From the NCBI RefSeq assembly GCF_017352155.2, contig NZ_CP071462.1, forward strand, positions 558,001 through 622,000: a stretch of 64,000 nucleotides of DNA, in the 5' to 3' direction. The DNA is from Haloterrigena alkaliphila. GTDB lineage: Archaea > Halobacteriota > Halobacteria > Halobacteriales > Natrialbaceae. Positions 3,605 through 17,760 of this stretch are shown here, in pieces (the first letter of the stretch is position 1; every line of letters starts with the position of its first letter). The notes under the pieces were generated by a model. The model made no database searches and had not been told where the DNA came from. It worked only from the letters and a program-made list of their open reading frames with translations. The position numbers and the translations under genes are program-made.

Positions 3605-4534
3605 ATGACGGACTCGAACGGACGCGCTCTCGTGACGGGCGGTGCCGGCTTCATCGGTTCGCACCTCACGGAACGCCTGCTCGCGGACGGTATCGACGTA
3701 ACGGTCGTCGACGACTGCTCGAACGGCGATCCCGACCGCGTTCCCGACCGCGCGACGTTCGTCGAGGCGGACCTGACGAACCCCGACGCACTCGAGGGGC
3801 TCCTCGACGGTATCGACCGCGTCTTCCACCTCGCGGCGTCGAAACACGTCGATACGGACCGTCCCCACGGTCAGTTCGACGACAACACGCGGATGACCCG
3901 GAACATCCTCGAGGCGATGGCCGACGCGGACGTGACCGAGATTCTGTACACCTCGACCTCGACGGTCTACGGCGAGGCCCCGCGGCCGACGCCGGAGGAC
4001 TACGCGCCCCTCGAGCCGATCAGCGCCTACGGGGCGAGCAAACTGGCCGACGAGGGACTGCTCTCCGCGCGGGCGCACAGCCACGACCTGACGGTCTGGA
4101 ACGTCCGGTTCGCGAACGTCGTCGGGCCGCGCCTGCGCGGGGCCGTCATTCCCGATTTCATCGAGAAACTGCGAGACGACCCCGAGACGCTCACGATCCT
4201 CGGCGACGGCCGACAGGAGAAGTCCTACCTCCACATCGAGGACTGCCTCGACGCGATGCTCCACGTCGTCGAGCACGCCGACGACGCGATGAACACCTAC
4301 AACCTCGGGACGCGAACGACGACCTCGGTCGATCGGATCGCCGCGATCGTCGCCGACGAACTGGAACTCGATCCAGACTTCGAGTACACCGGCGGCGAAC
4401 GGGGCTGGACCGGCGACGTCCCGAAGATGCGCCTCTCCATCGAGAAGCTCTCGGCGCTGGGGTGGGAGCCGACGCTCTCGAGCGACGAAGCCGTTCGACG
4501 AGCGACCCGCGAGATCATCGCGGAGATGGATTGA
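3605..4534 (+). CDS. NAD-dependent epimerase/dehydratase (extended SDR, nucleotide-sugar type)
   Basis: Cytosolic enzyme of the UDP-glucose 4-epimerase/dTDP-glucose dehydratase superfamily, supplying nucleotide sugars for surface glycans. The NAD-binding GGAGFIG loop is at residues 12-18, a Ser/Thr cluster (TSTSTVYGE) at 116-124, and the catalytic pair Y142-x3-K146 lies in AYGASK. At 309 aa it is full length. It stands immediately left of the operator-linked sugar/iron cluster and points the same way, but has no copy of that operator itself. Its substrate (UDP-Glc, GDP- or dTDP-sugar) cannot be told. It could feed the downstream sugar enzymes. Confidence 0.9.
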   Translation: MTDSNGRALVTGGAGFIGSHLTERLLADGIDVTVVDDCSNGDPDRVPDRATFVEADLTNPDALEGLLDGIDRVFHLAASKHVDTDRPHGQFDDNTRMTRNILEAMADADVTEILYTSTSTVYGEAPRPTPEDYAPLEPISAYGASKLADEGLLSARAHSHDLTVWNVRFANVVGPRLRGAVIPDFIEKLRDDPETLTILGDGRQEKSYLHIEDCLDAMLHVVEHADDAMNTYNLGTRTTTSVDRIAAIVADELELDPDFEYTGGERGWTGDVPKMRLSIEKLSALGWEPTLSSDEAVRRATREIIAEMD

Positions 4535-4610
4535 CCGTCGGACTGGGTGTGATCGGCTAACAGCGAAGGAATCGGACTCGAGAGCCGCCGTCGACCCCGC
4601 GCGACCGAGT

Positions 4611-4626
4611 TTTAGGTGGGCTTAAA
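4611..4626 (+). promoter_or_regulatory. 16-bp palindromic operator, copy 1 (before the flippase-like gene)
   Basis: TTTAGG-TGGG-CTTAAA, one mismatch from a perfect 6-4-6 inverted repeat. Its right half overlaps the likely TATA element (TTAAATAT, 4622-4629), which is about 25 nt before the ATG at 4651. A protein bound here would block TBP/TFB. The half-site TTAGGT resembles that of metal-dependent DtxR/IdeR-type repressors; assignment to iron is inference. Confidence 0.7.
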
Positions 4627-4650
4627 TATCTGGGTGCGGGAGAGACGTCC

Positions 4651-5826
4651 ATGAACGGCGGCGGCGAAGAAACGGCTCGCGAAGGCGACGACGAATCAGC
4701 GTCGCCGAACGCCGACGAGGAATCCGGGGACCGCGGAGTCGTCGACGTCCTGACCCGCCGTCGAGTGACGATCGCCGGAACGGTGCTCGTCGTCCTGGGG
4801 CTGCTCGTCGCCGTCCGCGAGATCGACCTCCGGACCGTCGCCGCGGAGGTCTCGAGCGCCGACCCGCGGCTGCTCGCGGCCGCGGTCGCCGTCTACGCGC
4901 TCTCGTGGCCGCTCCGCGGGCGCCGGTACGCGGACGTGCTGGCGGCGATGGGTCACCGCTGCGGAACTGGCGTTCTCACGCTGGCGGTCTTCCTCAGCCA
5001 GACGGCCAACCTCGCGATTCCCGCGCGGGCGGGCGATACGGTGCGTGCGTACGTCGTCAATACGCAGCGGGACGTCCCCTACACCGCGGGGTTCGCGTCG
5101 CTGGCGGTCGAACGCGTCTTCGATCTGGCCGCGATCGCCGCGCTCGCCGGACTCGCGACCGCGTGGCTCGCGCTGGGCGGGCGGGCCGGCCCGCTCGAGA
5201 TCGTCGCGGAAGCCGGCGGCGCGCGGACGGCCCTGCTGGCCGCGGCGGCGGTGAGCGCGGCGACGGTCGTCGTCGTTACGTCTGCCCGGGTAGACTACGG
5301 GCAGGGGCTGGCCGCGCGGCTCCGCACACGCGTTCGAGGCCGGTCGCGGATCGAAGGACCGCTCGAGACCGCGCTCCGGTTCGCGACCGACGTGCAGGTC
5401 GTCGCGCGACAGCCGCGGGCGCTGGCGGCGATCGGCGCGACGAGCCTGATCGTGTGGTCGCTGGACGTCCTCACCGCGGTGCTCGTCCTCGCGGCGCTGG
5501 GCAGCGGCCTCTCGACCGGAACGCTGCTGGCGGTCGGGACGCTGGCGGTCAGCGTGGGGAATCTCGCGAAGGTGCTCCCGCTCTCGCAGGGCGGCGTCGG
5601 GCTCTACGAGGCCGCGTTCACGGCGCTCGTGGTCGGGCTGACCCCCGTCGGTGCCAGCACGGCGCTGGCGGCCGCCATCGTCGACCACGCGCTGAAAAAC
5701 GGCGTGACGCTGGTCGGCGGCGCCGGCGCGGTCGCCGGGCTTGGCATTTCCCTGTCGAAGGCGTCGACCGAACCCGACTCGAAGACGCGAGAAACCGGCA
5801 GTTTTTTAGGTGAGCCTAAAAGATAG
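4651..5826 (+). CDS. UPF0104 / lysylphosphatidylglycerol synthase-type membrane protein (flippase-like)
   Basis: Integral membrane protein of 391 aa with about 8 predicted helices after a polar, acidic N-terminus of about 35 residues. The conserved family stretch LAIPARAGDTVRAY followed by VERVFDL lies near residues 124-165. The family is the membrane half of bacterial lysyl-PG synthases (MprF flippase domain) and stands alone in many archaea, often near glycosyltransferases. A role in flipping or handling a lipid-linked sugar is inference. The gene is probably leaderless behind operator copy 1. Its last codons (FLGEPKR, stop 5824-5826) are written through operator copy 2. Confidence 0.85.
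   Translation: MNGGGEETAREGDDESASPNADEESGDRGVVDVLTRRRVTIAGTVLVVLGLLVAVREIDLRTVAAEVSSADPRLLAAAVAVYALSWPLRGRRYADVLAAMGHRCGTGVLTLAVFLSQTANLAIPARAGDTVRAYVVNTQRDVPYTAGFASLAVERVFDLAAIAALAGLATAWLALGGRAGPLEIVAEAGGARTALLAAAAVSAATVVVVTSARVDYGQGLAARLRTRVRGRSRIEGPLETALRFATDVQVVARQPRALAAIGATSLIVWSLDVLTAVLVLAALGSGLSTGTLLAVGTLAVSVGNLAKVLPLSQGGVGLYEAAFTALVVGLTPVGASTALAAAIVDHALKNGVTLVGGAGAVAGLGISLSKASTEPDSKTRETGSFLGEPKR
5805..5820 (+). promoter_or_regulatory. 16-bp palindromic operator, copy 2 (before the RGP-like gene)
   Basis: TTTAGG-TGAG-CCTAAA, a perfect 6-4-6 inverted repeat inside the 3' end of the upstream coding sequence. It sits 14 nt before the ATG at 5834 and abuts a T-run (5802-5807) at the TATA position. 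See copy 1 for the likely regulator class. Confidence 0.75.
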
Positions 5827-5833
5827 CGGGGCA

Positions 5834-7015
5834 ATGAGTCAGGATATCTGCGTGATCGTCCCGACGATCCGGGAGTACGAGTGTCTGCGCTCGTACTTCG
5901 GGAACGCCCGCGCCCACGGCTTCGACCTCTCGAGGCTCCACGTCGTGCTCGTCACCGAGGACTTCTGCGAGACCGACGCCATGGAACGGCTGCTCGAGGA
6001 GGAGGGCGTCTCCGGCGAGGTGTTCGACGGCAGCCGCCGCGAGGAGTGGTACGAGGCCTACGGCGTCGCCGACTACGACCACGTCGTGCCGGCGGCGAGC
6101 CACGCCGAGACGAGTTTCGGCCTGCTCTACATGTGGGCCCACGACGAGTTCGACTACGGCTTCTTCATCGACGACGACACCCTTCCCCACGAGGATCAGG
6201 ACTTCTTCGGTACCCACATGGAGAACCTCGCGTTCGAGGGCGAAATCGAGGCGGTCTCCTCGGACGAGCAGTGGGTCAACGTGCTCTACCAGAACGCCGA
6301 CGAACACGGACTCTACCCGCGCGGATATCCGTACTCCGCGATGGGAGAGACCGTCGAGACCGGGACGACCGAAATCGGCGCCGGCGAGGTCGTCGCCTCG
6401 CAGGGCCTCTGGACGAACGTGCCCGACCTCGACGCCGTCCGCATCCTCATGGACGGCGACCTCGAGGGCCAGGCCCAGACCCGAACGAGCAGCGACGACT
6501 TCGGCGACGACTTCGTCGCCGAGCGGGGCAACTACCTCACCGTCTGCTCGATGAACCTCGCCTTCCGTCGCGAGGTGATCCCCGCGTTCTACCAGCTCCC
6601 GATGGACGACAACGAGTGGGACGTCGGCCGCTTCGACGACATCTGGTCGGGCGTCTTCCTCAAGCGCGCCTGCGACGTTCTGGGCAAGCGCATCTACAAC
6701 GGCGCGCCGCTCTGCGAGCACAACAAGGCCCCGCGCAGCACCTTCGACGACCTGAACAACGAGGTACCGGGGCTCGAGTTGAACGAACACCTCTGGCGGA
6801 TGATCGACGACGTTGGAGAGGACGCCGACTCCTACGCCGCGGTCTTCGAGGCGATGGGCCGCGAACTCGCCGACGGCGACTGGGAGACGTACAACAACGG
6901 CGCCTTCTTCAACTACGTCGGCGAGCACATGCTCGACTGGCTCGAGTGTCTGTCCGAACTCCGACCGGCGCCGGGGCTCGAGACCGAACGTGATCGCGTC
7001 GTCGCCGACAGCTGA
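5834..7015 (+). CDS. reversibly glycosylated polypeptide (RGP)/UDP-arabinopyranose mutase-like protein
   Basis: 393-aa cytosolic protein. Segments match the plant RGP/UDP-arabinopyranose mutase family (also annotated as alpha-1,4-glucan-protein synthase): IDDD at 112-115 (metal/nucleotide-sugar site), RGYPYS at 163-168 (its Arg corresponds to the self-glycosylated region of plant RGPs), SQGLWTNVPDLDA, CSMNLAF and GRFDDIWSG. Plant members interconvert pyranose and furanose forms of UDP-arabinose; archaeal substrates are not known to me. An upstream GTG at 5810 falls inside the operator, so I use the ATG at 5834. The transcript is probably leaderless and controlled by operator copy 2. Confidence 0.85.
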   Translation: MSQDICVIVPTIREYECLRSYFGNARAHGFDLSRLHVVLVTEDFCETDAMERLLEEEGVSGEVFDGSRREEWYEAYGVADYDHVVPAASHAETSFGLLYMWAHDEFDYGFFIDDDTLPHEDQDFFGTHMENLAFEGEIEAVSSDEQWVNVLYQNADEHGLYPRGYPYSAMGETVETGTTEIGAGEVVASQGLWTNVPDLDAVRILMDGDLEGQAQTRTSSDDFGDDFVAERGNYLTVCSMNLAFRREVIPAFYQLPMDDNEWDVGRFDDIWSGVFLKRACDVLGKRIYNGAPLCEHNKAPRSTFDDLNNEVPGLELNEHLWRMIDDVGEDADSYAAVFEAMGRELADGDWETYNNGAFFNYVGEHMLDWLECLSELRPAPGLETERDRVVADS

Positions 7016-7067
7016 CGACCGTCCGCGGCCCGCTCGGTTTCGGGCGAGGAATCGTCAGCTATAAGTT

Positions 7068-7083
7068 TTTAGGTTGGCCTAAA
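7068..7083 (+). promoter_or_regulatory. 16-bp palindromic operator, copy 3 (before the iron-type ABC operon)
   Basis: TTTAGG-TTGG-CCTAAA, a perfect 6-4-6 inverted repeat. It starts right after a TATA-like CTATAAGTTT (7059-7068) and ends 7 nt before the ATG at 7090. It therefore covers the expected transcription start of a leaderless mRNA, the position of a repressor. Confidence 0.78.
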
Positions 7084-7089
7084 CCGAGT

Positions 7090-8250
7090 ATGAACGAAGG
7101 AAGTGAGGAACGTGGGGTTTCACGCAGGAACGCGCTGCGAGTCGGCGCCGGACTGGGTGTCACCTCGCTCGCGGGGTGTCTGGGCCTGTTCGGGGACGAT
7201 CAGAACGTCGAGATTCCGGCGCTCTCGGAGTTCCGGGGGTCCGGTTCGCTGGTCGAGGGTCGCCCCGCGCCGGGCGGGACGTCCATCGAGGACCTCCCCG
7301 ACCTCTCCGGGGACCTCGCGCTCTACATCGGCGGCGGCGAGGGCGGCATCTACTACGAATTCGTGGAGATGCTCCAGAACATCTACTCCGACTTCGAGGT
7401 CCATACCACCGACAACGCTTCGTCGTCGCTGGCCGAGACCATCGTCGAGGAGGTCGACGCCGGCGCGTCCCGGGCCGACGTCTTCTGGTCGATCGACGCC
7501 AGTTCGCTGGGGTTCGTCGCGGCAAACGACGCCTACGAACCGCTATCGGACGAGGTGGTCGACATGGTTGCAAACGGGCAGTTCGTCGGCGACGACAAGG
7601 CATGGGCCGGCGTCGCCGGACGGGCCCGCGCCGTGCCGTACAACACCGACGAACTGAGCGAGTCGGACATCCCGAACACCGTACAGGACTTCCCGTCGAC
7701 CGACGCCCTTCAGGGGACGGTGGGCTGGGCGCCGACCTACGGCGCGTTCAAGTCGTTCGTCACCGCCATGCGGCTGATCAACGGCGAGGACGCGACCCGC
7801 GAGTGGCTGGTCGCCATGCGGGAGGCCGGCACCGAGCGACACGGTAACGAGTACGCCGTCTCGCAGTCGGTCGCCGAGGGGTCGCTGGCCGCCGGGTTCG
7901 CCAACCACTACTACGCGATGCGCGTCAAGAACCAGCAACCCGACGCCCCGATCGACCTCGCGTTCACCGAAGGCGACGCGGGCGCGTTGATCAACGTCGC
8001 CGGCGCGCTGAAGATCCAGGGAACGCAGCGGGGCGACCTGGTCGACGACTTCGTCCGCCACCTGCTGTCCGCGGAGGCCCAGGAGTACTTCGCGACGGTC
8101 AGTTTCGCCTACCCGATGATCGGCGGCGTCGAGCCGGTCGGCGGACTCCCCTCGATCGACGAACTGAGTCCGCCGGATATCGACCTCGCTGAGCTGGCGG
8201 ACATCGAACCGACCCTCGATCTGATGGACGAGGCCGGCGTCTCGGGATGA
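7090..8250 (+). CDS. iron(III)-type ABC transporter substrate-binding lipoprotein (FbpA/FutA-like)
   Basis: Extracytoplasmic solute-binding protein, 386 aa. The Tat signal SRRNALRVG (residues 11-19) leads into a hydrophobic stretch and lipobox LAGC with Cys30. The mature part has the class II binding-protein fold seen in Fe(III) binders. Adjacent tyrosines Y274-Y275 in NHYYAMR match the paired Tyr iron ligands of FbpA-type proteins. It overlaps the permease gene by 4 nt (ATGA), so the two are translationally coupled. Operator copy 3 and the paired tyrosines both favour iron; thiamine or polyamine binding is less likely. Confidence 0.88.
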   Translation: MNEGSEERGVSRRNALRVGAGLGVTSLAGCLGLFGDDQNVEIPALSEFRGSGSLVEGRPAPGGTSIEDLPDLSGDLALYIGGGEGGIYYEFVEMLQNIYSDFEVHTTDNASSSLAETIVEEVDAGASRADVFWSIDASSLGFVAANDAYEPLSDEVVDMVANGQFVGDDKAWAGVAGRARAVPYNTDELSESDIPNTVQDFPSTDALQGTVGWAPTYGAFKSFVTAMRLINGEDATREWLVAMREAGTERHGNEYAVSQSVAEGSLAAGFANHYYAMRVKNQQPDAPIDLAFTEGDAGALINVAGALKIQGTQRGDLVDDFVRHLLSAEAQEYFATVSFAYPMIGGVEPVGGLPSIDELSPPDIDLAELADIEPTLDLMDEAGVSG

Positions 8251-9857
8251 GCGCACGCGAGCGCATCGCGAGTGCGGTCGGTCGAAGGGGCGACGGAGAC
8301 GGCGCCGTCGACGTCGGCCTCACCCTGCTCGCCGCGGCCATCGCCGCTGCGCTCGTCCTTCCGCTGACTTGGCTGTTCGTGGACGCCGCCGCGCTCGGCG
8401 ACCGGGCGTTCGAACTCGCCGTCGCACCCCGAACCCTCGAGGTGCTGGTCAGAAGCGTCGCCCTCGTCGCCGTCGTCACCGGCGCGAGCGTCCTCCTCGG
8501 CGTCCCGCTCGCGCTGTTGACGGTCCAGGGCGATATCCCGTTTCCCCGATTCTGGACGATACTCGCCGCCCTGCCGCTCGCGGTTCCGAGCTACCTCGGG
8601 GCGTTCGCCTTCGTTTCGGCGTTCGGGCCGCAGGGCGAACTCGCCGACCTCCTGGCGCCGCTGGGAATCGAGTCGATCCCGTCGATCTACGGCTTCGCCG
8701 GCGCCGCGTTCGTGCTGACGCTGTACACCTACCCGTACGTGTTTCTGACGACGCGCGCGTCGCTGCTCTCCTTCGACGGGTCGCTCGTCGAAGCGGCGCG
8801 GACGCTCAACGCCGGCCGCTGGGAGGCGTTTCGTCGGGTCACGCTACCCCAGATCCTGCCGGGAATAACCGCCGGCGCGTTACTCGTCGCGCTGTACGCG
8901 CTCGCCGACTTCGGCACGCCGAACATCATGCGGGTCGAGGTGTTCACGCAGGCCATCTACGCCCGGTTCCACGCCCACGCCCGCGACTACGCCGCGTTGC
9001 TGTCGCTGCAGTTGCTGACCGTGACGGCGGTCATCCTCGCGCTCGAGTCGCGCATCGGCGTCGACGAGTCGGGCGCCTACGAGAGCAGCGGCCACCGCGG
9101 AACCGCCGAACTCGACCTCGGCGCCTGGCGGTACCCGGCCCTGTTGCTGCCGGCCGCGATCGGCCTGCTGGCGATCGTCCTGCCGATCGCCATCTTCGGG
9201 ATGTGGCTGTCGACGGGCGGCCCCGGCTACCAGGTCGGTCGGCTCTCGTTCGACTGGGAGTACGGCTTCAACTCGGCCTACGTCGCGGTGCTGGCCGCCG
9301 CCGTCTCCATCCTCGTGGCGCTGCCGATCGCGATCAGTGCGGCGACCTCCGACTCGCGGCTGGCGGCGCTGGCCGACCGCGCGCCCTACGTCGGGTACGC
9401 GACGCCGGGGATCGTACTGGCGATCGCGTTGCTCAGTTTCAGCCTCGACGTGCTGCCGTCGGTCTACAAGACGGTGCCGCTGCTGGTGTTCGCCTACGTC
9501 GTCCGGTTCATGCCCCAGGCGATCGGGTCGATCCGGACCTCGACGCTGCAGGTCGACCGGCAACTCGTCGAGGCGGCCCGGACGCTGGGCCGGTCGCGAT
9601 TGAACGCCTTCCGGACGGTGACGCTCCCGCTGATCCTGCCGGGGGTGGCGGCCGGCGCCGCGCTGGTCTTCCTCACGACGATGAAGGAGTTGCCCGCGAC
9701 GCTGATGTTGCGCCCGCTTGGGTTCGACACGCTGGTGACGTACATCTGGCGCGTCGAAGAGGCCGGCCTCTACGGGCAGGCGGCGGTCCCGGCGCTGGTC
9801 CTGATCGGTATCTCCGGCCTCTCGATGGCCGTCATGCTCGCCCAGGAGGGGCGGTGA
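8247..9857 (+). CDS. iron-type ABC transporter permease (fused double domain, FbpB-like)
   Basis: 536-aa membrane protein with about 12 helices in two homologous halves. Each half carries an ATPase-docking EAA loop: EAARTLNAGRWEAFRRVTLP in the first half and EAARTLGRSRLNAFRTVTLP in the second. That is the layout of FbpB/AfuB permeases. It overlaps the binding-protein gene by 4 nt. The expected third component, an ATP-binding protein, is not encoded next to it or anywhere else in this window; the next gene is a glycosyltransferase. The ATPase may be shared with another importer elsewhere in the genome. Confidence 0.9.
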   Translation: MSARERIASAVGRRGDGDGAVDVGLTLLAAAIAAALVLPLTWLFVDAAALGDRAFELAVAPRTLEVLVRSVALVAVVTGASVLLGVPLALLTVQGDIPFPRFWTILAALPLAVPSYLGAFAFVSAFGPQGELADLLAPLGIESIPSIYGFAGAAFVLTLYTYPYVFLTTRASLLSFDGSLVEAARTLNAGRWEAFRRVTLPQILPGITAGALLVALYALADFGTPNIMRVEVFTQAIYARFHAHARDYAALLSLQLLTVTAVILALESRIGVDESGAYESSGHRGTAELDLGAWRYPALLLPAAIGLLAIVLPIAIFGMWLSTGGPGYQVGRLSFDWEYGFNSAYVAVLAAAVSILVALPIAISAATSDSRLAALADRAPYVGYATPGIVLAIALLSFSLDVLPSVYKTVPLLVFAYVVRFMPQAIGSIRTSTLQVDRQLVEAARTLGRSRLNAFRTVTLPLILPGVAAGAALVFLTTMKELPATLMLRPLGFDTLVTYIWRVEEAGLYGQAAVPALVLIGISGLSMAVMLAQEGR

Positions 9858-9867
9858 CGATCGACCG

Positions 9868-11880
9868 ATGAAACGCCGAACGTGGCGGTCGGCGGTCGTC
9901 GTCGTCGCCCTCGTCGGCGCCGTCATCGTCTGGCTACTCTCGACGCGAACGTTTCCCTACCACTCGATCAACCACGACGAGGGCGTCTACCTCCAGCAGG
10001 CGGCGATGCTTCTCGAGGGCCAGCTCTTCGTCCGGCCGCCCGTCGAGGAGTCCCTCCGCCCCTGGTTCTTCGTCGAGGACGGCGGACGACTCTACCCGAA
10101 GTACGCGCCCGTCCCCGCGGTGATCTTCGCGCTCGGCGAACTGGTGGGGAGCTACCGGCTCGCCCTCCCCGGAATCGCCGCCGCCATCCTCGCGCTCGTC
10201 GCCCTCGTGGTCCGCGAGGTGTTCGACCGCCGAACCGGCGTCGCGGCCGCCGTGGCCGTGCTGTGTTCGCCGCTGTTCCTGATCGACGCGTCCCTCTTCC
10301 TGCCGTACGCGCCGACGGCGATGTTGAACCTGGCCTTCGCCTACTGCTACCTCCGGGCCGACCGGACGGACGACCGACGCTGGGCCGGCGCGGCCGGCGC
10401 GGCGATCGGGCTGGCCTTCTTCGCGCGGCCCTACACCGCCGTCCTGTTCGCCGCGCCGTTCCTCGCCCACGCCTGCTGGACCCTCTATCGGGACCCGCGA
10501 GCGGCGCTCCCCCGACAGAGCGCGACGGCGGCGTTCGGGCTGGCCGGCGTCGGTTTGGCGCTAACCTACAACACCGTCGTGACCGGGTCGCCGCTGCTGT
10601 TTCCCTACGAGGCGTTCGCCCCGCGGGACGGTCTCGGATTCGGCCACCGGCGGATGCTCCATCACGAGATCGAGTACACCGTCGGGCTGGCCCTGCGGGC
10701 GAACGCGCTGGTGATGCGAACGTTCGTCGCCGAGTGGATCGCGGGCGGGATCCTCGGCGCGGCGGTGGCCGTGGGCGGGTTCGGCGTCGCCGTCCGGCGC
10801 GGGCTCTCGCCCCGCGAGGCCATCCTCGCCGGACAGGCGGTCTCTATCGCCGTCGGCAACGTCTACTTCTGGGGGAACTTCAACGTCCTCGGCGACCTCG
10901 AGCGCGCCGGTGACGGGCTGATCGCCGTCCACGGTCCGTACTACCACTTCGATCTCCTGTTGCCGTTCGCGGCGTTCGCCGCCGTCGGCGCGCTGGCAGC
11001 GGTCGCCGCCGTCCGGCGGGCGGCCGACCGGAATTTGCGGCCCCAAACCGCCCGCGTGGCGTTCGTCGCGGTGGTGCTCGCGAGCGCGCTCGCGCTGGGT
11101 GGCGTGACGGCGGCGAATTTCGACGAGAAGATCGATCGAAACGCCGCGGCGACGGACACCTACGAGCGCGTCTACGCCCCGCTCGAGGAGGGGACGTCCG
11201 ACCCCTCGGTCGTGTTCCTCCCGACGACGTACGGCGACTGGCTCGCCCACCCGTTCCAGCCGCTTCGCAACGAGCCGGGCTTCGACGGGCAGCGGGTGTA
11301 CGCCCTCGACGAGCGGCCGTTCGCCGTCGCGGACGCGTATCCCGACCGGTCGCTGTACCGCTTCGCCTACCGCGGCCAGTGGGATCCCACCGCCGACTCG
11401 CCCCGAGCGGCCCGGCTCCAGCGGGTCGACCACGTCGCGGGGTCCGCGGTCGAGTTGAACGCGACCCTCGGCGTCCCGCCCGCGGCGGAGAGCCTCTCCG
11501 CCACCGTCACGGCGAACGGGACCAGCGCCACCTACGTCGCCGAGAACGTCTCCGAGCGGACGCGGGTTCGACTCACCGTCACCGACGGCGCCGTGCGCCT
11601 GCGCGGGGCGAACTGGGACGCCGACGAACCGCTCTCCGTCGACGACCGGGAGGACGTCACCCTGACGGTGTTCGTCGACCGCGGACCGGGGGGCAGCTTC
11701 AGCTACCGCCTCGAGCTCCCGATCCGCGCGGAGGGCGAGGCCGTCCGCGCGCTGACGCCCAGAATCGAACGGTGTAGCGCGGTCCGCGACTGCGGGGGCG
11801 ACGCGGCGTACATTCCCGATCGGTCGCCGGACGGCATCTTCGTCCGCACGGAACTCGCGGCGCTGGACGGGAGCGAGTAG
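9868..11880 (+). CDS. GT39/ArnT-like membrane glycosyltransferase
   Basis: 670-aa protein: about 10-12 helices over the first ~420 residues, then a ~240-residue soluble domain rich in beta-type sequence that probably lies outside the cell. The first extracytoplasmic loop has HDEGVY (Asp37-Glu38), the acidic pair typical of GT-C enzymes that take sugars from polyprenyl phosphate. A loop with RPPVEESLRPWF follows. It starts 10 nt after the permease stop, so it belongs to the operator-copy-3 operon. Co-transcription of a surface glycosyltransferase with an iron-type importer is unusual. The acceptor is unknown. Confidence 0.8.
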   Translation: MKRRTWRSAVVVVALVGAVIVWLLSTRTFPYHSINHDEGVYLQQAAMLLEGQLFVRPPVEESLRPWFFVEDGGRLYPKYAPVPAVIFALGELVGSYRLALPGIAAAILALVALVVREVFDRRTGVAAAVAVLCSPLFLIDASLFLPYAPTAMLNLAFAYCYLRADRTDDRRWAGAAGAAIGLAFFARPYTAVLFAAPFLAHACWTLYRDPRAALPRQSATAAFGLAGVGLALTYNTVVTGSPLLFPYEAFAPRDGLGFGHRRMLHHEIEYTVGLALRANALVMRTFVAEWIAGGILGAAVAVGGFGVAVRRGLSPREAILAGQAVSIAVGNVYFWGNFNVLGDLERAGDGLIAVHGPYYHFDLLLPFAAFAAVGALAAVAAVRRAADRNLRPQTARVAFVAVVLASALALGGVTAANFDEKIDRNAAATDTYERVYAPLEEGTSDPSVVFLPTTYGDWLAHPFQPLRNEPGFDGQRVYALDERPFAVADAYPDRSLYRFAYRGQWDPTADSPRAARLQRVDHVAGSAVELNATLGVPPAAESLSATVTANGTSATYVAENVSERTRVRLTVTDGAVRLRGANWDADEPLSVDDREDVTLTVFVDRGPGGSFSYRLELPIRAEGEAVRALTPRIERCSAVRDCGGDAAYIPDRSPDGIFVRTELAALDGSE

Positions 11881-12034
11881 GGACCCGATCGACCGGCCCT
11901 CGTTCGGCGTGGTTCGAGCAGTTCGGGCAGGTTGGTGGGTTCGGTCGGGAGCCACCGACCGGCAGCGCTCGGGCGAACCTGCACCGAGGAATATCAGGCA
12001 CCAGCGTTAGGATCCGGCTCGTGTCAGAGCGCCT

Positions 12035-13117
12035 ATGACCGAGCAGCGGTGCGGTCACGTCACGAGCACCAGCGGAGTCGAGGACGCCGGCGCGGTCTGT
12101 TGTTGACGGCCCACGTGGGAGGACGCCGGCGCGGTCTGTTGTTGACGGCCCACGTGGGAGGACGCCGAGCGCTGTCACTGGCACGCCGAGGCCGCCGTTC
12201 CGACGACGGCCTACGAGCGAAACCCGCCGGAACCGGGCGAACGACTCGACGGGGCGAACTTCCGGGGAGCCACGCTGAGCGGAACGTCGTTTCTCGCCGG
12301 GCGGTCGCTCGTCGGGGCCGACTTCGCGGACGCGGTCCTCGACGATACCGACCTCTCGGGTGCGGATCTCCGCCGAGCCACGTTCCGGGACGTCGACGCC
12401 CACGCCGCGTCGTTCCGGGACGCGAACCTCCACGACGCGGCGTTCGTCTTCGCCGACCTCCGCGGCGCGGACTTTCGAGGCGCGCGACTCTACCGCGCGG
12501 GGCTGACCGACGTTCGGATCAACCTCGAGACGTCGTTCGGCGAGCGGTCGGTCTACGAGGAGGAGTTTGCCGGCGAGCCGTCGGACGAGAGGACTACGGC
12601 GTCCGCCGACTCCGCGCAGTGGGTCTACCGCGAGCTACAGCGCCTCTACGACGAGAACGCGTTTCCGGAACGGGTCAACGACTACTACCTGCGCGAGATG
12701 AACTTCCGACGGCGACACGCCTGGCGGGTCGGGAACTACCTGCAGGCGATCAAACTCGCCGGCTCGCGCTGGATCATGCACTACGGGACGAGTCCGTGGC
12801 GCGTCGTGGCGACGTCGCTCCTGTTGATCTTCGTCTGCGCGGCGCTGTACCCGCTGACCGGAGGCATTCAGGAGGTCGGAACCGAGACCGCGGTCACGTA
12901 CGATATCGACGATCCGACAGAGACGCCCGGCCCCGTCCTCGTCCGGGCGTTCCTCAAGAGCCTCTACTTCAGCGTCATCACCTTCGCGACGCTCGGCTAC
13001 GGCGACATCCAGCCGGTCGAGGGGTGGGCCCGCGCGATCGCCGGGATCGAAACCCTGCTCGGATCGCTGCTGATGGCGCTGCTGGTGTTCGTCCTGACCA
13101 GGAGCGTCCACTACTGA
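12035..13117 (+). pseudogene. pentapeptide-repeat two-helix potassium-channel-like protein, broken by in-frame TGA codons
   Basis: A single frame runs from ATG 12035 (MTEQRCGHVTS) to the stop at 13115-13117. It has pentapeptide repeats (GANFRGATLSGTSF, GADLRRATF and so on) and a two-helix pore domain with the selectivity filter TLGYGD. The frame is cut by TGA at 12101-12103 and again at 12140-12142. Both lie in copies of a 39-bp tandem duplication, where related proteins have Cys-Cys-Trp-Arg (TGG to TGA). No in-frame ATG or GTG occurs after the stops until ATG 12698, deep in the protein. That would leave only the pore part (139 aa), which might still be made. Confidence 0.75.
12080..12157 (+). 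repeat. 39-bp tandem duplication (2 copies)
   Basis: Two identical 39-bp units (12080-12118, 12119-12157) begin GAGGACGCCGG. They are followed by a third start of the unit (GAGGACGCCG) that runs on into unique sequence, so the duplication probably arose between 10-bp microhomologies. The unit is a multiple of three and keeps the frame, but each copy carries an in-frame TGA. Confidence 0.9.
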
Positions 13118-13153
13118 GCGTCGCCGGCTGCGGATCGATCGGAAGCGCCGTTC

Positions 13154-13945
13154 CTATCGCGTCGGTTCGTGTGGCAGTTCCCGCAACCGCTCCTCGAGAC
13201 AGACCTTGACGATCGACTTCGCGATCTCGGCGCCACCCCGGAGCGGGTCGAGTTTCGTTTCGCCGGCGCGCTCGCGGTACTCGATGGGGTGCTCGCGGAT
13301 ATCGTACCCTCGCATCAGCGGTCGAATCAGGAGTTCCGCGGAGAGGCCGGTGTTCTCGGTCCACTCGATCGATTCGACAACGTCGCGTCGGTAGGCCCGC
13401 ATGCCGGTCGTCGTGTCGTGAACGCGGGTGCCCATCAGCACGCTGGCGATGGCCGCGAAGGCGTGGTTCCCGAAGCGGTTGAACGCCGGCATCGCGTCGG
13501 CGCCGTGGTAGAGCCGGTCGCCGCTGACGACGTCGTACCCCTCGTTGATCAACTCGAGGAACTCGGGGAGTTGCTCCATCGGGTAGGTGTCGTCGCAGTC
13601 GGTCGTGACCACGATGGGGCGGTCGGGCTCGAGAACGGCCGCGCGGACCGCGACGCCGTACCCCTGTGGCTCCTGTTCGATCACCGTCGCGCCGTGCTCG
13701 CGGGCGATTTCGGGCGTGCGGTCCGAGGAGCCGTCGACGCAGACGACCTCGGCCTTCCCGTCGGTGATTTCCTCGACGTCCGAGAGCACTTTGCCGATCG
13801 CTTCCGCCTCGTTGTAGGTTCCCATGACGACGCTGACGTCTTCGAAGGTGTACTCGCCAGCCTCGTCGCCGCTCACGGTGTCGATACCGTCGTCCGTTCC
13901 GTCCGTCCCGCGTTCGTTTCCGTCGGGAGCCTCGGCGCTACTCAT
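13154..13945 (-). CDS. GT2 glycosyltransferase, dolichyl-phosphate-mannose synthase (DPM1) type
   Basis: 263-aa soluble enzyme likely to transfer a sugar from a nucleotide donor to polyprenyl phosphate on the cytosolic face. GT-A features: VVMGTYNEAEAI at residues 39-50, VDGSSDRT at 70-77, and the metal-binding Asp cluster DCDD at 116-119. Conserved DPM/AglJ-like segments follow (HDTTTGMRAYRR; TGLSAELL). No C-terminal helices are present. A GTG at 13954 is possible, but the TATA element at 13971-13980 places a leaderless start at the ATG 13945. Operator copy 4 sits directly upstream. Its product is the natural donor for a GT39-type enzyme such as the one at 9868. Confidence 0.88.
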   Translation of the reverse strand: MSSAEAPDGNERGTDGTDDGIDTVSGDEAGEYTFEDVSVVMGTYNEAEAIGKVLSDVEEITDGKAEVVCVDGSSDRTPEIAREHGATVIEQEPQGYGVAVRAAVLEPDRPIVVTTDCDDTYPMEQLPEFLELINEGYDVVSGDRLYHGADAMPAFNRFGNHAFAAIASVLMGTRVHDTTTGMRAYRRDVVESIEWTENTGLSAELLIRPLMRGYDIREHPIEYRERAGETKLDPLRGGAEIAKSIVKVCLEERLRELPHEPTR

Positions 13946-13977
13946 TATCAGCACTCCCTGCGGGCCGCACTTATATT

Positions 13978-13993
13978 TTTAGGTTCGCCTAAA
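13978..13993 (-). promoter_or_regulatory. 16-bp palindromic operator, copy 4 (before the GT2 gene)
   Basis: TTTAGG-TTCG-CCTAAA, a perfect 6-4-6 inverted repeat. For the minus-strand gene it lies just upstream of, and overlaps by a few bases, the TATA element at 13971-13980 (AAAAATATAA), covering the BRE/TFB side. The gene to its right reads toward the site, so only the GT2 gene can use it. Confidence 0.78.
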
Positions 13994-14007
13994 ATGTGGC
14001 GGTGGGG

Positions 14008-15684
14008 TTACAGCACTTCGAGCACGTGATCCGCCGCCTTCAGCGCCAGCGCCGCGATCGTCAGCGTCGGGTTCGTCGCGCCGCCGGTCGGGAAGACGCT
14101 GCTCGAGGCGATCCAGCAGTTCTCGAGGTCGTGGGTCCGCAGATCTGGGCCGACGACGCTCTCGGCCGGATCGTCGCTCATCCGGGTCGTCCCCATGTGG
14201 TGGAAGGCCGGGCCGGCGTTCTCCGGACCGACCTGCCAGGTGATCTCTGCGCCGAGTTCCCCCAGCACTCGCTCCTGGATCTCGTTCGCCCGATCGAGGG
14301 TTCGCAGCGCCCGATCGTCGATCGTCCAGTGGACGTCCGGAACGGGGTTGCCGCGGTCGTCCGTGCGGTCGGGATCGAGTCCGATGTAGCTGTCTTCGCG
14401 GGGGAGTTGCTCAACCAGCGCGCCCACGCCGATCTGGTTGCCGTACTCCGTTCGGAGGCGCTCGAGCAGGTCGTCGCCCCAGTCCTCGCCCTCGAGGGCC
14501 ATCGCCGGCGGCGCCATCTCGAGCGCTGCCGGGCCGCCGTAGTTCAGGAACTCGAGTTTGAACGGCGCGTACTCAGCGTCGGCGTCGTCGTAGAACTGGT
14601 GGGACTCGCTGGTGAGGAAGCCGACGTGGTTCAGTCGGGTCCGCTCGTCGAGGATCCCGCCCGTCCCCGCGAACAGGTGCTCCATGAAGAACTTGCCGAC
14701 CGTCCCGCTCGAGTTAGCGAGGCCGTCGGGATAGTGGCTCGATTCGGAGAGCAACAGCAAGCGGGGCGTCTCGACGCCGCCGCAGGCGACCACGAACGCG
14801 TCCGCGTGCTGGCGGTGCTCCTCGCCGTCGGGCGCGGCGTAGACGGCGGCGTCGATCGCGTCGGGGCCGTGTGCTAAGCGCTGGACGGGGACGCGGTCGA
14901 TCACCGTCGCGCCCTTTGTCTCGGCGCGCTCGACGTGGACCGTCGCGTCGTACTTCGCGCCGGACGGACAGACCGGTTCGCAGGTGCCGTAGCCGACGCA
15001 GGCGCTCCGGCCGTCGTAGCGTTCCGAGTTGCGGGCGTTGGGCACGGAGTGCATCGCGATCTCGAGTTCCTCGCAGGCCTCGGCGAACAGCGAGTCGCTG
15101 TAGGAGGGCGGAAACGCCGGCATCGGATGGGGTTCCTCTCGGGGCGGCGCGAAGGGGTTGTCGTCGGCCCCGGCGATGCCGAGTTCCCGCTCGGCCTCGG
15201 CGTAGTAGGGCCGCAGGTCCTCGTAGTCGATCGGCCAGTCGGGCCCGACGCCGCGAGCGCTGGCGGAGTTGAAGTCGTCCTCGTGGAGCCGCATCACCAT
15301 CCCCTGCCAGTGCAGCGTCGAGCCGCCGACGCCCTTGGCACGGGTGTAGTTCAGCGGGTAGTGGCGCGCGCCCGAACTCTCGTAGGCGTCCCGCTCGGGG
15401 TGGCCGTCCCAGACGGCCGGCCGGTCGTAGGCCGGTCTGATCGCCCGTTCCTGTCGCGCGTGGCGGTCCGACGGATCGAATCGGGGGCCGGCCTCGAGGA
15501 CGACGACTTCGAGACCGGCGTCGGCGAGTCGATCCGCCACGATTCCGCCCGCGGGCCCGGCGCCGATCACGCAGACGTCGGCGTCCGCGACGGGCGTTCG
15601 ATCGACGTCCGCATCAGCGCTGCGTTCGGCGTCCCCATCGGTCCTCGACCCCGCCGACTGCGCGGGCGGCCGATCCCAGCTCAC
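14008..15684 (-). CDS. GMC-family FAD dehydrogenase (sugar/alcohol dehydrogenase catalytic subunit)
   Basis: 558-aa flavoprotein. FAD-binding GAGPAGG is at residues 41-47. A GMC signature region, GVGGSTLHWQGM, is at 118-129. The C-terminal catalytic region has FHHMGTTRM and GGATNPTLTIAALA. Cys229, Cys235 and Cys239 (CVGYGTCEPVC) form a C-x5-C-x3-C cluster like that proposed to hold an Fe-S centre in bacterial FAD glucose dehydrogenases. It has no signal peptide of its own. Its GTG start (15684) overlaps the stop of the Tat-exported small subunit, so it probably travels with that subunit. Regulated from operator copy 5. Substrate uncertain. Confidence 0.88.
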   Translation of the reverse strand: MSWDRPPAQSAGSRTDGDAERSADADVDRTPVADADVCVIGAGPAGGIVADRLADAGLEVVVLEAGPRFDPSDRHARQERAIRPAYDRPAVWDGHPERDAYESSGARHYPLNYTRAKGVGGSTLHWQGMVMRLHEDDFNSASARGVGPDWPIDYEDLRPYYAEAERELGIAGADDNPFAPPREEPHPMPAFPPSYSDSLFAEACEELEIAMHSVPNARNSERYDGRSACVGYGTCEPVCPSGAKYDATVHVERAETKGATVIDRVPVQRLAHGPDAIDAAVYAAPDGEEHRQHADAFVVACGGVETPRLLLLSESSHYPDGLANSSGTVGKFFMEHLFAGTGGILDERTRLNHVGFLTSESHQFYDDADAEYAPFKLEFLNYGGPAALEMAPPAMALEGEDWGDDLLERLRTEYGNQIGVGALVEQLPREDSYIGLDPDRTDDRGNPVPDVHWTIDDRALRTLDRANEIQERVLGELGAEITWQVGPENAGPAFHHMGTTRMSDDPAESVVGPDLRTHDLENCWIASSSVFPTGGATNPTLTIAALALKAADHVLEVL

Positions 15685-16199
15685 GCTCCCGGCCCCCGCT
15701 GGTAGCTGTCGAGGCCGCCCGCGTGGCCCTGCGGGTTCTCGATGCCGACCAGTTCGCCGCCCGCCGGCGAGGCGTACAGCGCCAGCAGCAGGTCGTTCAC
15801 CACGTAGTAGCGGACCCGTTCGGCGGTCGTCCCGTCGGGATTTTCGTCGGCGTCGGCCGCGCCGATACCCCGCAGGGCGCGATCCCGGTCCTCGATCGAC
15901 AGCGCCGCGAACGACTCGTCGAACCACACCGCCGCGTGCTCGTCCAGATCCGCGACGGCCTCGTCCAGCCCAGCCGCGTGCGTCGGGTCCTCGAGTCGGC
16001 CCTCGAGAAACGACTCGACGAACGTCGCCGTGCCGGTGACCTCGCTCGGGTAGACGACTTCGGCGGCTGCGACCAACACCTCGCGGATCCGATCGACGTC
16101 GAGCGGTTCGGCCCCGGGCGGGGCCACACAGCCCGACAGCGTCCCGCCGACGCCGAGCGCCCCCAGCGCGGCGACCGCGTCCCGTCTGGTCAGCTCCAT
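15681..16199 (-). CDS. gluconate 2-dehydrogenase subunit 3 family protein (Tat lipoprotein)
   Basis: 172-aa small subunit of a GMC-type dehydrogenase. The N-terminus TRRDAVAALGALGVGG is a Tat signal ending in a lipobox SGC (Cys24), so the complex should be anchored on the outer face. In bacterial FAD glucose and gluconate dehydrogenases this subunit carries the catalytic subunit through Tat as a hitch-hiker. It overlaps the GMC gene by 4 nt. No cytochrome subunit is nearby, so the electron acceptor is open. Operator copy 5 lies 9 nt upstream of the ATG. Confidence 0.85.
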   Translation of the reverse strand: MELTRRDAVAALGALGVGGTLSGCVAPPGAEPLDVDRIREVLVAAAEVVYPSEVTGTATFVESFLEGRLEDPTHAAGLDEAVADLDEHAAVWFDESFAALSIEDRDRALRGIGAADADENPDGTTAERVRYYVVNDLLLALYASPAGGELVGIENPQGHAGGLDSYQRGPGA

Positions 16200-16207
16200 G
16201 TGAGCGA

Positions 16208-16223
16208 ATTAGGTGAACCTAAA
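16208..16223 (-). promoter_or_regulatory. 16-bp palindromic operator, copy 5 (before the GMC dehydrogenase operon)
   Basis: On the plus strand ATTAGG-TGAA-CCTAAA, one mismatch from the perfect 6-4-6 repeat. The TATA element of the minus-strand operon (TATTTGTTTT, 16221-16230) overlaps its end, and the ATG at 16199 is at the leaderless distance. The site thus lies between TATA and the start codon. Confidence 0.72.
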
Positions 16224-17522: not shown

Positions 17523-17679
17523 GAAAACGCCAGGACAGGGATTTGAACCACGGTCGGACGTGCTCGCTCGCTCCGCTCGCTGTGCGCGACCTCTCTGATT
17601 CAAATCCTGTGATACCGTTTCATGATTTTGGATTACTCGCGCCGCTACGCGTCGCTCGTAGCAAGCAAAATCATGAAAA
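17523..17679. repeat. tRNA-Ser 3'-end direct repeat with two inverted repeats
   Basis: A 27-bp sequence at 17523-17549, containing the last ~22 nt of the tRNA-Ser gene plus 4-5 flanking bases, recurs exactly at 17675-17701 in the tRNA itself, 152 bp away. Between them lie two inverted repeats. ACAGGGATTTGAA (17535-17547) pairs with TTCAAATCCTGT (17599-17610), apart from one extra G. TTTCATGATTTT (17618-17629) pairs perfectly with AAAATCATGAAA (17667-17678). The arrangement resembles an att scar of an integrating element or a tRNA-derived repeat. Confidence 0.75.
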
Positions 17680-17760
17680 CGCCAGGACAGGGATTTGAAC
17701 CCTGAATCCCAAAGGGAACACGCTTTCCAGGCGTGCGCCTTACCGTTCGGCCATCCTGGC
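17680..17760 (-). tRNA. tRNA-Ser (anticodon GGA)
   Basis: On the minus strand the acceptor stem GCCAGGA pairs with TCCTGGC. The anticodon arm is CACGC-CTGGAAA-GCGTG with anticodon GGA. A long variable arm (about TTCCCTTTGGGA), typical of serine tRNA, precedes the T arm CAGGG-TTCAAAT-CCCTG. Discriminator base is G; CCA is not encoded. 81 nt. Confidence 0.95.

Follow-up and report, generated by a model that had tools for sequence, protein, structure and literature searches.

A conserved 16-bp palindrome in Haloterrigena alkaliphila, predicted to be the operator of a DtxR-type iron regulon that takes in ferric-uptake, surface-glycan, and sugar-dehydrogenase genes

Operator sites and genes of the locus

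The window analysed here is a 64,000-nt stretch of the Haloterrigena alkaliphila genome (NZ_CP071462.1, positions 558,001 to 622,000 of the forward strand), in which predicted genes for a ferric-iron importer lie beside predicted genes for surface-glycan synthesis and a sugar dehydrogenase. A preliminary description, made from the letters alone, had proposed that five promoters of this cluster share a single inverted repeat, TTTAGG-N4-CCTAAA, and form a metal-responsive regulon. The five 16-bp repeats were found where that description had placed them, three of them perfect (Table 1), and all five precede a start codon by 7-48 nt. Dinucleotide shuffles gave an expectation of 0.07 matches in the window at two or fewer mismatches, and none of 100 shuffles reached six. 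The accompanying statement that the window holds no further copy also stands, the sole extra match (58358, 2 mismatches) being judged not credible.

The 6-bp arms are kept across the sites, the four bases of the N4 centre are free apart from a mild Y...R preference, and the flanks outside the 16 bp are almost without information. Each site had been described as lying on or next to a TATA element. This is clear for genes b, d, and h, and plausible for j, whereas no clear TATA element was identified for c. The genes had also been called leaderless, a reading with which the short distances between site and start would be compatible.

Table 1. Operator sites and genes of the cluster, in window coordinates.
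Feature	Position	Strand	Sequence or assignment	Context or supporting match
operator 1	4611-4626		TTTAGGTGGGCTTAAA, 1 mismatch	gene b promoter; -25..-40 from ATG 4651; overlaps TATA-like element TTAAATAT
operator 2	5805-5820		perfect	gene c promoter; -14..-29; overlaps 3' end (last codons) of gene b
operator 3	7068-7083		perfect	d-e-f promoter; -7..-22 from d; directly after TATA-like element (TATAAG)
operator 4	13978-13993		perfect	gene h promoter; -33..-48; just upstream of TATA element (AATATAAG)
operator 5	16208-16223		ATTAGGTGAACCTAAA, 1 mismatch; core TTAGGN4CCTAA perfect	j-i promoter; -9..-24 from j
gene b	4651..5826	+	LPG_synthase_TM / UPF0104 flippase-like membrane protein	PF03706 1.4e-43; TIGR00374 over cut-off (NCBIfam)
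gene c	5834..7015	+	GT75 / reversibly-glycosylated-polypeptide family, predicted NDP-pyranose mutase	PF03214 4.3e-18
gene d	7090..8250	+	FbpA-type ferric-iron binding lipoprotein	best of 27 PDB relatives: ferric iron ABC binding protein, 1.3e-43
gene e	8247..9857	+	two-domain FbpB-type ABC permease	PF00528, two stretches, 1.1e-23
gene f	9868..11880	+	PMT_2-type membrane glycosyltransferase, C-terminal DUF7846	PF13231 1.6e-8; PF25230 8.3e-47
gene h	13154..13945	-	dolichyl-phosphate hexose transferase (GT2)	NCBIfam NF041391, 416.7 bits (cut-off 375)
gene i	14008..15684	-	GMC flavoprotein, kin of FAD glucose/fructose dehydrogenase large subunits	PF05199 3.2e-21; PDB glucose dehydrogenase 4.4e-87
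gene j	15681..16199	-	small subunit, Gluconate_2-dh3 family	PF13618 2.7e-7; Tat/lipobox-like N-terminus MELTRRDAVAALGALGVGGTLSGC

Genome-wide sites and their targets

Searches of the 4.27-Mb genome, with the reversed pattern as control, returned 16 sites at one or fewer mismatches (3 for the control), 9 perfect 16-mers (0), and 12 exact TTAGG-N4-CCTAA cores (0). A genome scan of this kind had been called for in the preliminary description; run here with a 60-nt limit, it placed 10 of the 12 exact cores in front of a start codon at a distance of 60 nt or less. One of the two remaining cores lies between a methyltransferase gene and a DUF7090 gene.

Targets outside the window include a siderophore ABC importer with two sites, made up of a FecCD permease, its ATPase, and a Peripla_BP_2 binding protein. 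Two sites at a distance of 35 bp precede a second Peripla_BP_2 protein and the FAD oxidoreductase that follows it. Other targets are an iron-type ABC ATPase that has a TOBE domain, a cupin protein, a DUF7331 protein, and a dpsA-like ferritin gene. Iron uptake genes (FecCD, the siderophore ATPase and binding proteins, and the FbpA and FbpC types) are prominent in the genome-wide set. Some promoters carry paired operators, with a recurrent centre-to-centre distance of about 35 bp (exactly 35 in 8 of 18 close pairs); these pairs may be occupied by cooperative dimers. Paired operators were observed at the methyltransferase/DUF7090 locus (5312/5346 of the extracted locus), at the Peripla_BP_2-FAD oxidoreductase locus (5473/5508 of the extracted locus), and in many relatives.

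Conservation across Halobacteria

Eighty haloarchaeal loci with gene c were fetched (1.56 Mb in total). They contain 252 perfect sites and a further 85 with one mismatch; four control palindromes together gave no perfect match and a single one with one mismatch. A site precedes gene c in 80/80 relatives, lies near the start of gene d in 72/80, and precedes gene h in 59/63, gene j in 46/59 (mostly 14-18 nt from the start), and gene b in 23/46, the counts for j and b being depressed by uncertain start codons. No site stands in front of the neighbouring genes a, k, and f in the 80 loci. At a wider scale, the perfect 16-mer is present in 192 of 194 sampled Halobacteria genomes, most of which have several, with reversed controls near zero, and it is mostly absent outside Halobacteria. 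The predicted operator is class-wide in Halobacteria. The proposal that the five window sites belong to one regulon is strengthened by the 16 genome sites, the position of 10 of the 12 cores before starts, the iron-uptake targets, and the orthologous promoters in the 80 relatives.

The ferric-iron importer and its detached ATPase

The preliminary description had mentioned an iron-type ABC binding protein, which is gene d; its PDB match (Table 1) and an NxYYxxR di-tyrosine motif (adjacent tyrosine ligands), kept in 79 of 80 relatives, uphold that assignment. The window cluster holds only the binding protein and the permease; the ATPase gene is not among its members. An iron-type ABC ATPase gene is located 2.2 Mb from the cluster, at contig position 2730284, under an operator of its own, and a perfect operator was found about 50 nt upstream of the ATPase in 30/30 family orthologs inspected. 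In 21 loci of other haloarchaeal genera, the ATPase ortholog lies inside the cluster, mostly in the order c, binding protein, permease, ATPase, PMT. On the simplest reading, the distant ATPase would be the physical partner of d-e and power them. The FbpABC/FutABC ferric-iron importers likewise combine an FbpA-like protein carrying the di-tyrosine motif, a two-domain permease, and an iron-type ATPase, but the present system differs in that its ATPase gene is detached and keeps its own operator, and in that the importer is linked to glycan genes. Directly upstream of the ATPase operator (4532-4679 of the extracted locus) is a minisatellite with a 19-bp unit, present in 7.7 copies that are 98% alike.

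Glycan and dehydrogenase genes

Gene c aligns with MtdL (PDB 7xpr/7yua, 1.7e-21), and the equivalents of the DDD motif, Arg159, Asp195, Arg257, Asp260, and His287 are kept, whereas MtdL Asp87 is not matched by an Asp; the residues of the GT75 DDD motif and the reactive arginine are taken from the MtdL study (PMC9937993). With the DDD motif kept, as well as the GT75-mutase positions for reactive Arg, Asp, and His, the gene c product probably makes an NDP-furanose. It shares with the GT75 NDP-pyranose mutases (MtdL and plant UAM/RGP) the DDD motif, together with equivalents of the catalytic Asp/His and of the Arg that is autoglycosylated; unlike them, it stands under a predicted iron operator beside an importer. 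Gene f was found in 79 of 80 relatives. Genes i and j match the FAD glucose dehydrogenase complex in having a GMC catalytic subunit and a predicted Tat-exported small subunit, and a search for PDB relatives of the small subunit (j) returned no match.

Additional features were observed in the surrounding DNA. In a pentapeptide-repeat/ion-channel-like open reading frame, a 39-bp tandem duplication (2.5 copies, 12080-12176) near the beginning, at the 5' end, brings in-frame TGA codons, so that the gene is probably either damaged or translated from a start farther downstream. A minus-strand tRNA-Ser(GGA) gene and, about 150 bp away, a partial copy of its 3' end together account for the stretches 17529-17550 and 17680-17760; a copy of this kind might be left by an integrated element.

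Operator type and candidate regulators

The likeness of the half-site to DtxR/IdeR-type sites, pointed out in the preliminary description, proved to be close: the core is TTAGGNNNNCCTAA, the published one-dimer IdeR/DtxR site (PMC8464063). This sequence is a redefined 14-bp IdeR/DtxR consensus, bound by one dimer, that was proposed by a structural study, whose authors left the bacterial role of the one-dimer half-site to future work (PMC8464063). The IdeR/DtxR operators of Actinobacteria have the one-dimer core in common with the haloarchaeal sites (PMC8464063), but are usually 19 bp long (TTAGGTTAGSCTAACCTAA) and bind two dimers, whereas the information in the haloarchaeal sites is almost confined to 16 bp, and some promoters carry two separate sites.

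Four DtxR-family genes are present in the genome (PF02742 over cut-off): two encode near-identical long proteins, a third a long protein close to the IdeR/DtxR structures, and the fourth a short protein nearer to ScaR and MntR. No operator at three or fewer mismatches was found near any of the four. In genomes that carry 15 to 23 sites, the DtxR complement can be as small as one long and one short protein, and therefore one of these two types suffices. The long type, by its recognition helix, appears to be the better candidate for the regulator. An assignment by comparing site-rich with site-poor genomes failed, as DtxR proteins of the long and of the short type are present in both.

Discussion

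Taken with its distribution, its conservation, and its targets, the 16-bp palindrome is very probably the operator of a haloarchaeal DtxR-type iron regulon. The preliminary description had left the effector as a metal; because the targets are iron uptake genes, it may be narrowed to iron. When iron is sufficient, a metal-loaded dimer of one of the four DtxR-family paralogs would bind TTAGG-N4-CCTAA and, since the sites lie on the region from TATA to start, would block TBP/TFB or RNA polymerase, shutting the genes off; the overlap of the sites with this region in most promoters fits repression. When iron is scarce, the metal would leave, and the five window transcription units would be derepressed together. 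Their products would be the ferric FbpA-type importer (d and e, joined by the distant ATPase under its own operator), the extracellular-glycan enzymes c, b, h, and f, and the exported FAD sugar dehydrogenase j-i. To judge from the common operators, iron limitation would induce both the making of a surface glycan and a sugar dehydrogenase that acts outside the cell.

Several observations weigh against an iron regulon of this kind. The second core outside the 60-nt limit, at 1289490, has no convincing gene beside it; this site is a perfect operator (4991-5006 of the extracted locus), and perhaps marks a small unrecognised or decayed target. The iron-storage gene dpsA is a classic member of iron regulons. 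Here it has a one-mismatch site about 55-70 nt upstream, and dpsA sites are weak or degenerate and occur in only 11 of 30 loci, that of the present genome included. The dpsA site lies upstream of the TATA element, a position that would fit activation, and is poorly conserved. According to a 2024 proteome study (PMC11349517), the UPF0104 protein HVO_1859 of Haloferax (Hfx.) volcanii rises 11.6-fold on iron starvation. This protein could not be tied to gene b, since the b homologue in Haloferax lacks a site within 1.5 kb; the rise is therefore not attributable to the operator. Lastly, the long DtxR proteins appear, by eye, to carry Asp in place of DtxR Met10 and Cys102, a trait that resembles the manganese regulator MntR, and sequence by itself therefore does not fix the effector metal.

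These Asp residues are also the starting point for an alternative in which operator and regulator family are the same and the effector is manganese, or manganese and iron mixed, with the window genes answering to manganese supply. GT75 and other glycosyltransferases are divalent-cation enzymes, and GT75 mutases need Mn2+ or Mg2+ (PMC9937993). However, the targets are ferric and siderophore uptake genes rather than manganese transporters of the NRAMP, ZIP, or TroA type, and the short MntR/ScaR-like paralog is the better candidate for a manganese sensor, which makes this alternative unlikely. The location of all four DtxR genes outside the window would be compatible with a regulator from another family, for which the IdeR-like core would be coincidental; yet the core is identical to the redefined IdeR/DtxR consensus (PMC8464063), DtxR genes are present in 13/13 haloarchaeal genomes checked, and the targets are iron-uptake genes, so that a regulator of this sort is very improbable. 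As inverted repeats, one of which (operator 2) overlaps the end of gene b, the palindromes could also be viewed as structural elements of RNA or DNA, such as terminators or hairpins. The sites nevertheless lie shortly upstream of starts and not after stops, the N4 centre is free while the arms are kept, no T-run is required, and no Rfam match was obtained; the hairpin or terminator reading was rejected on the position of the sites and the free centre, and its probability is negligible.

DtxR-type iron regulation in haloarchaea is already known (PMC11349517). That study cites Idr, SirR, and TroR in Hfx. volcanii and Idr1/Idr2 in Halobacterium (Hbt.) salinarum as DtxR-family regulators in iron homeostasis, and the siderophore transporters (fhu) of Hfx. 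volcanii as carrying the 'ferR' signal of Leyn & Rodionov 2015. As cited there, the known regulon (FerR/FetR signal) and the predicted DtxR-type iron regulon described here are alike in joining iron and siderophore uptake genes through a common signal and DtxR-family regulators; they differ in that the present target list takes in a glycosylation and sugar-dehydrogenase cluster. The new part seems to be operator control of surface-sugar and dehydrogenase genes beside a ferric importer.

What these genes contribute can be suggested only tentatively. The glycan and dehydrogenase might make or oxidise surface sugars that capture ferric iron, solubilise it, or help to reduce it for the importer. 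A fuller and rather speculative scheme would have iron-starved haloarchaea build a new cell-surface glycan, as part of a ferric-iron capture coat, by means of an NDP-furanose, a dolichyl-phosphate hexose, the flippase-like protein, and the PMT-like transferase; the exported dehydrogenase would oxidise sugars to iron-binding acids, and the iron would be handed to FbpABC, all under single-dimer DtxR half-sites.

The detached ATPase with its kept operator is a clear case of one transporter whose parts would be brought back together by a common regulatory site. For the Halobacteria, the sites point to an archaeal iron regulon that is class-wide and uses the one-dimer IdeR/DtxR half-site; through common predicted operators it would link glycosylation of the cell surface and sugar oxidation outside the cell with iron acquisition.

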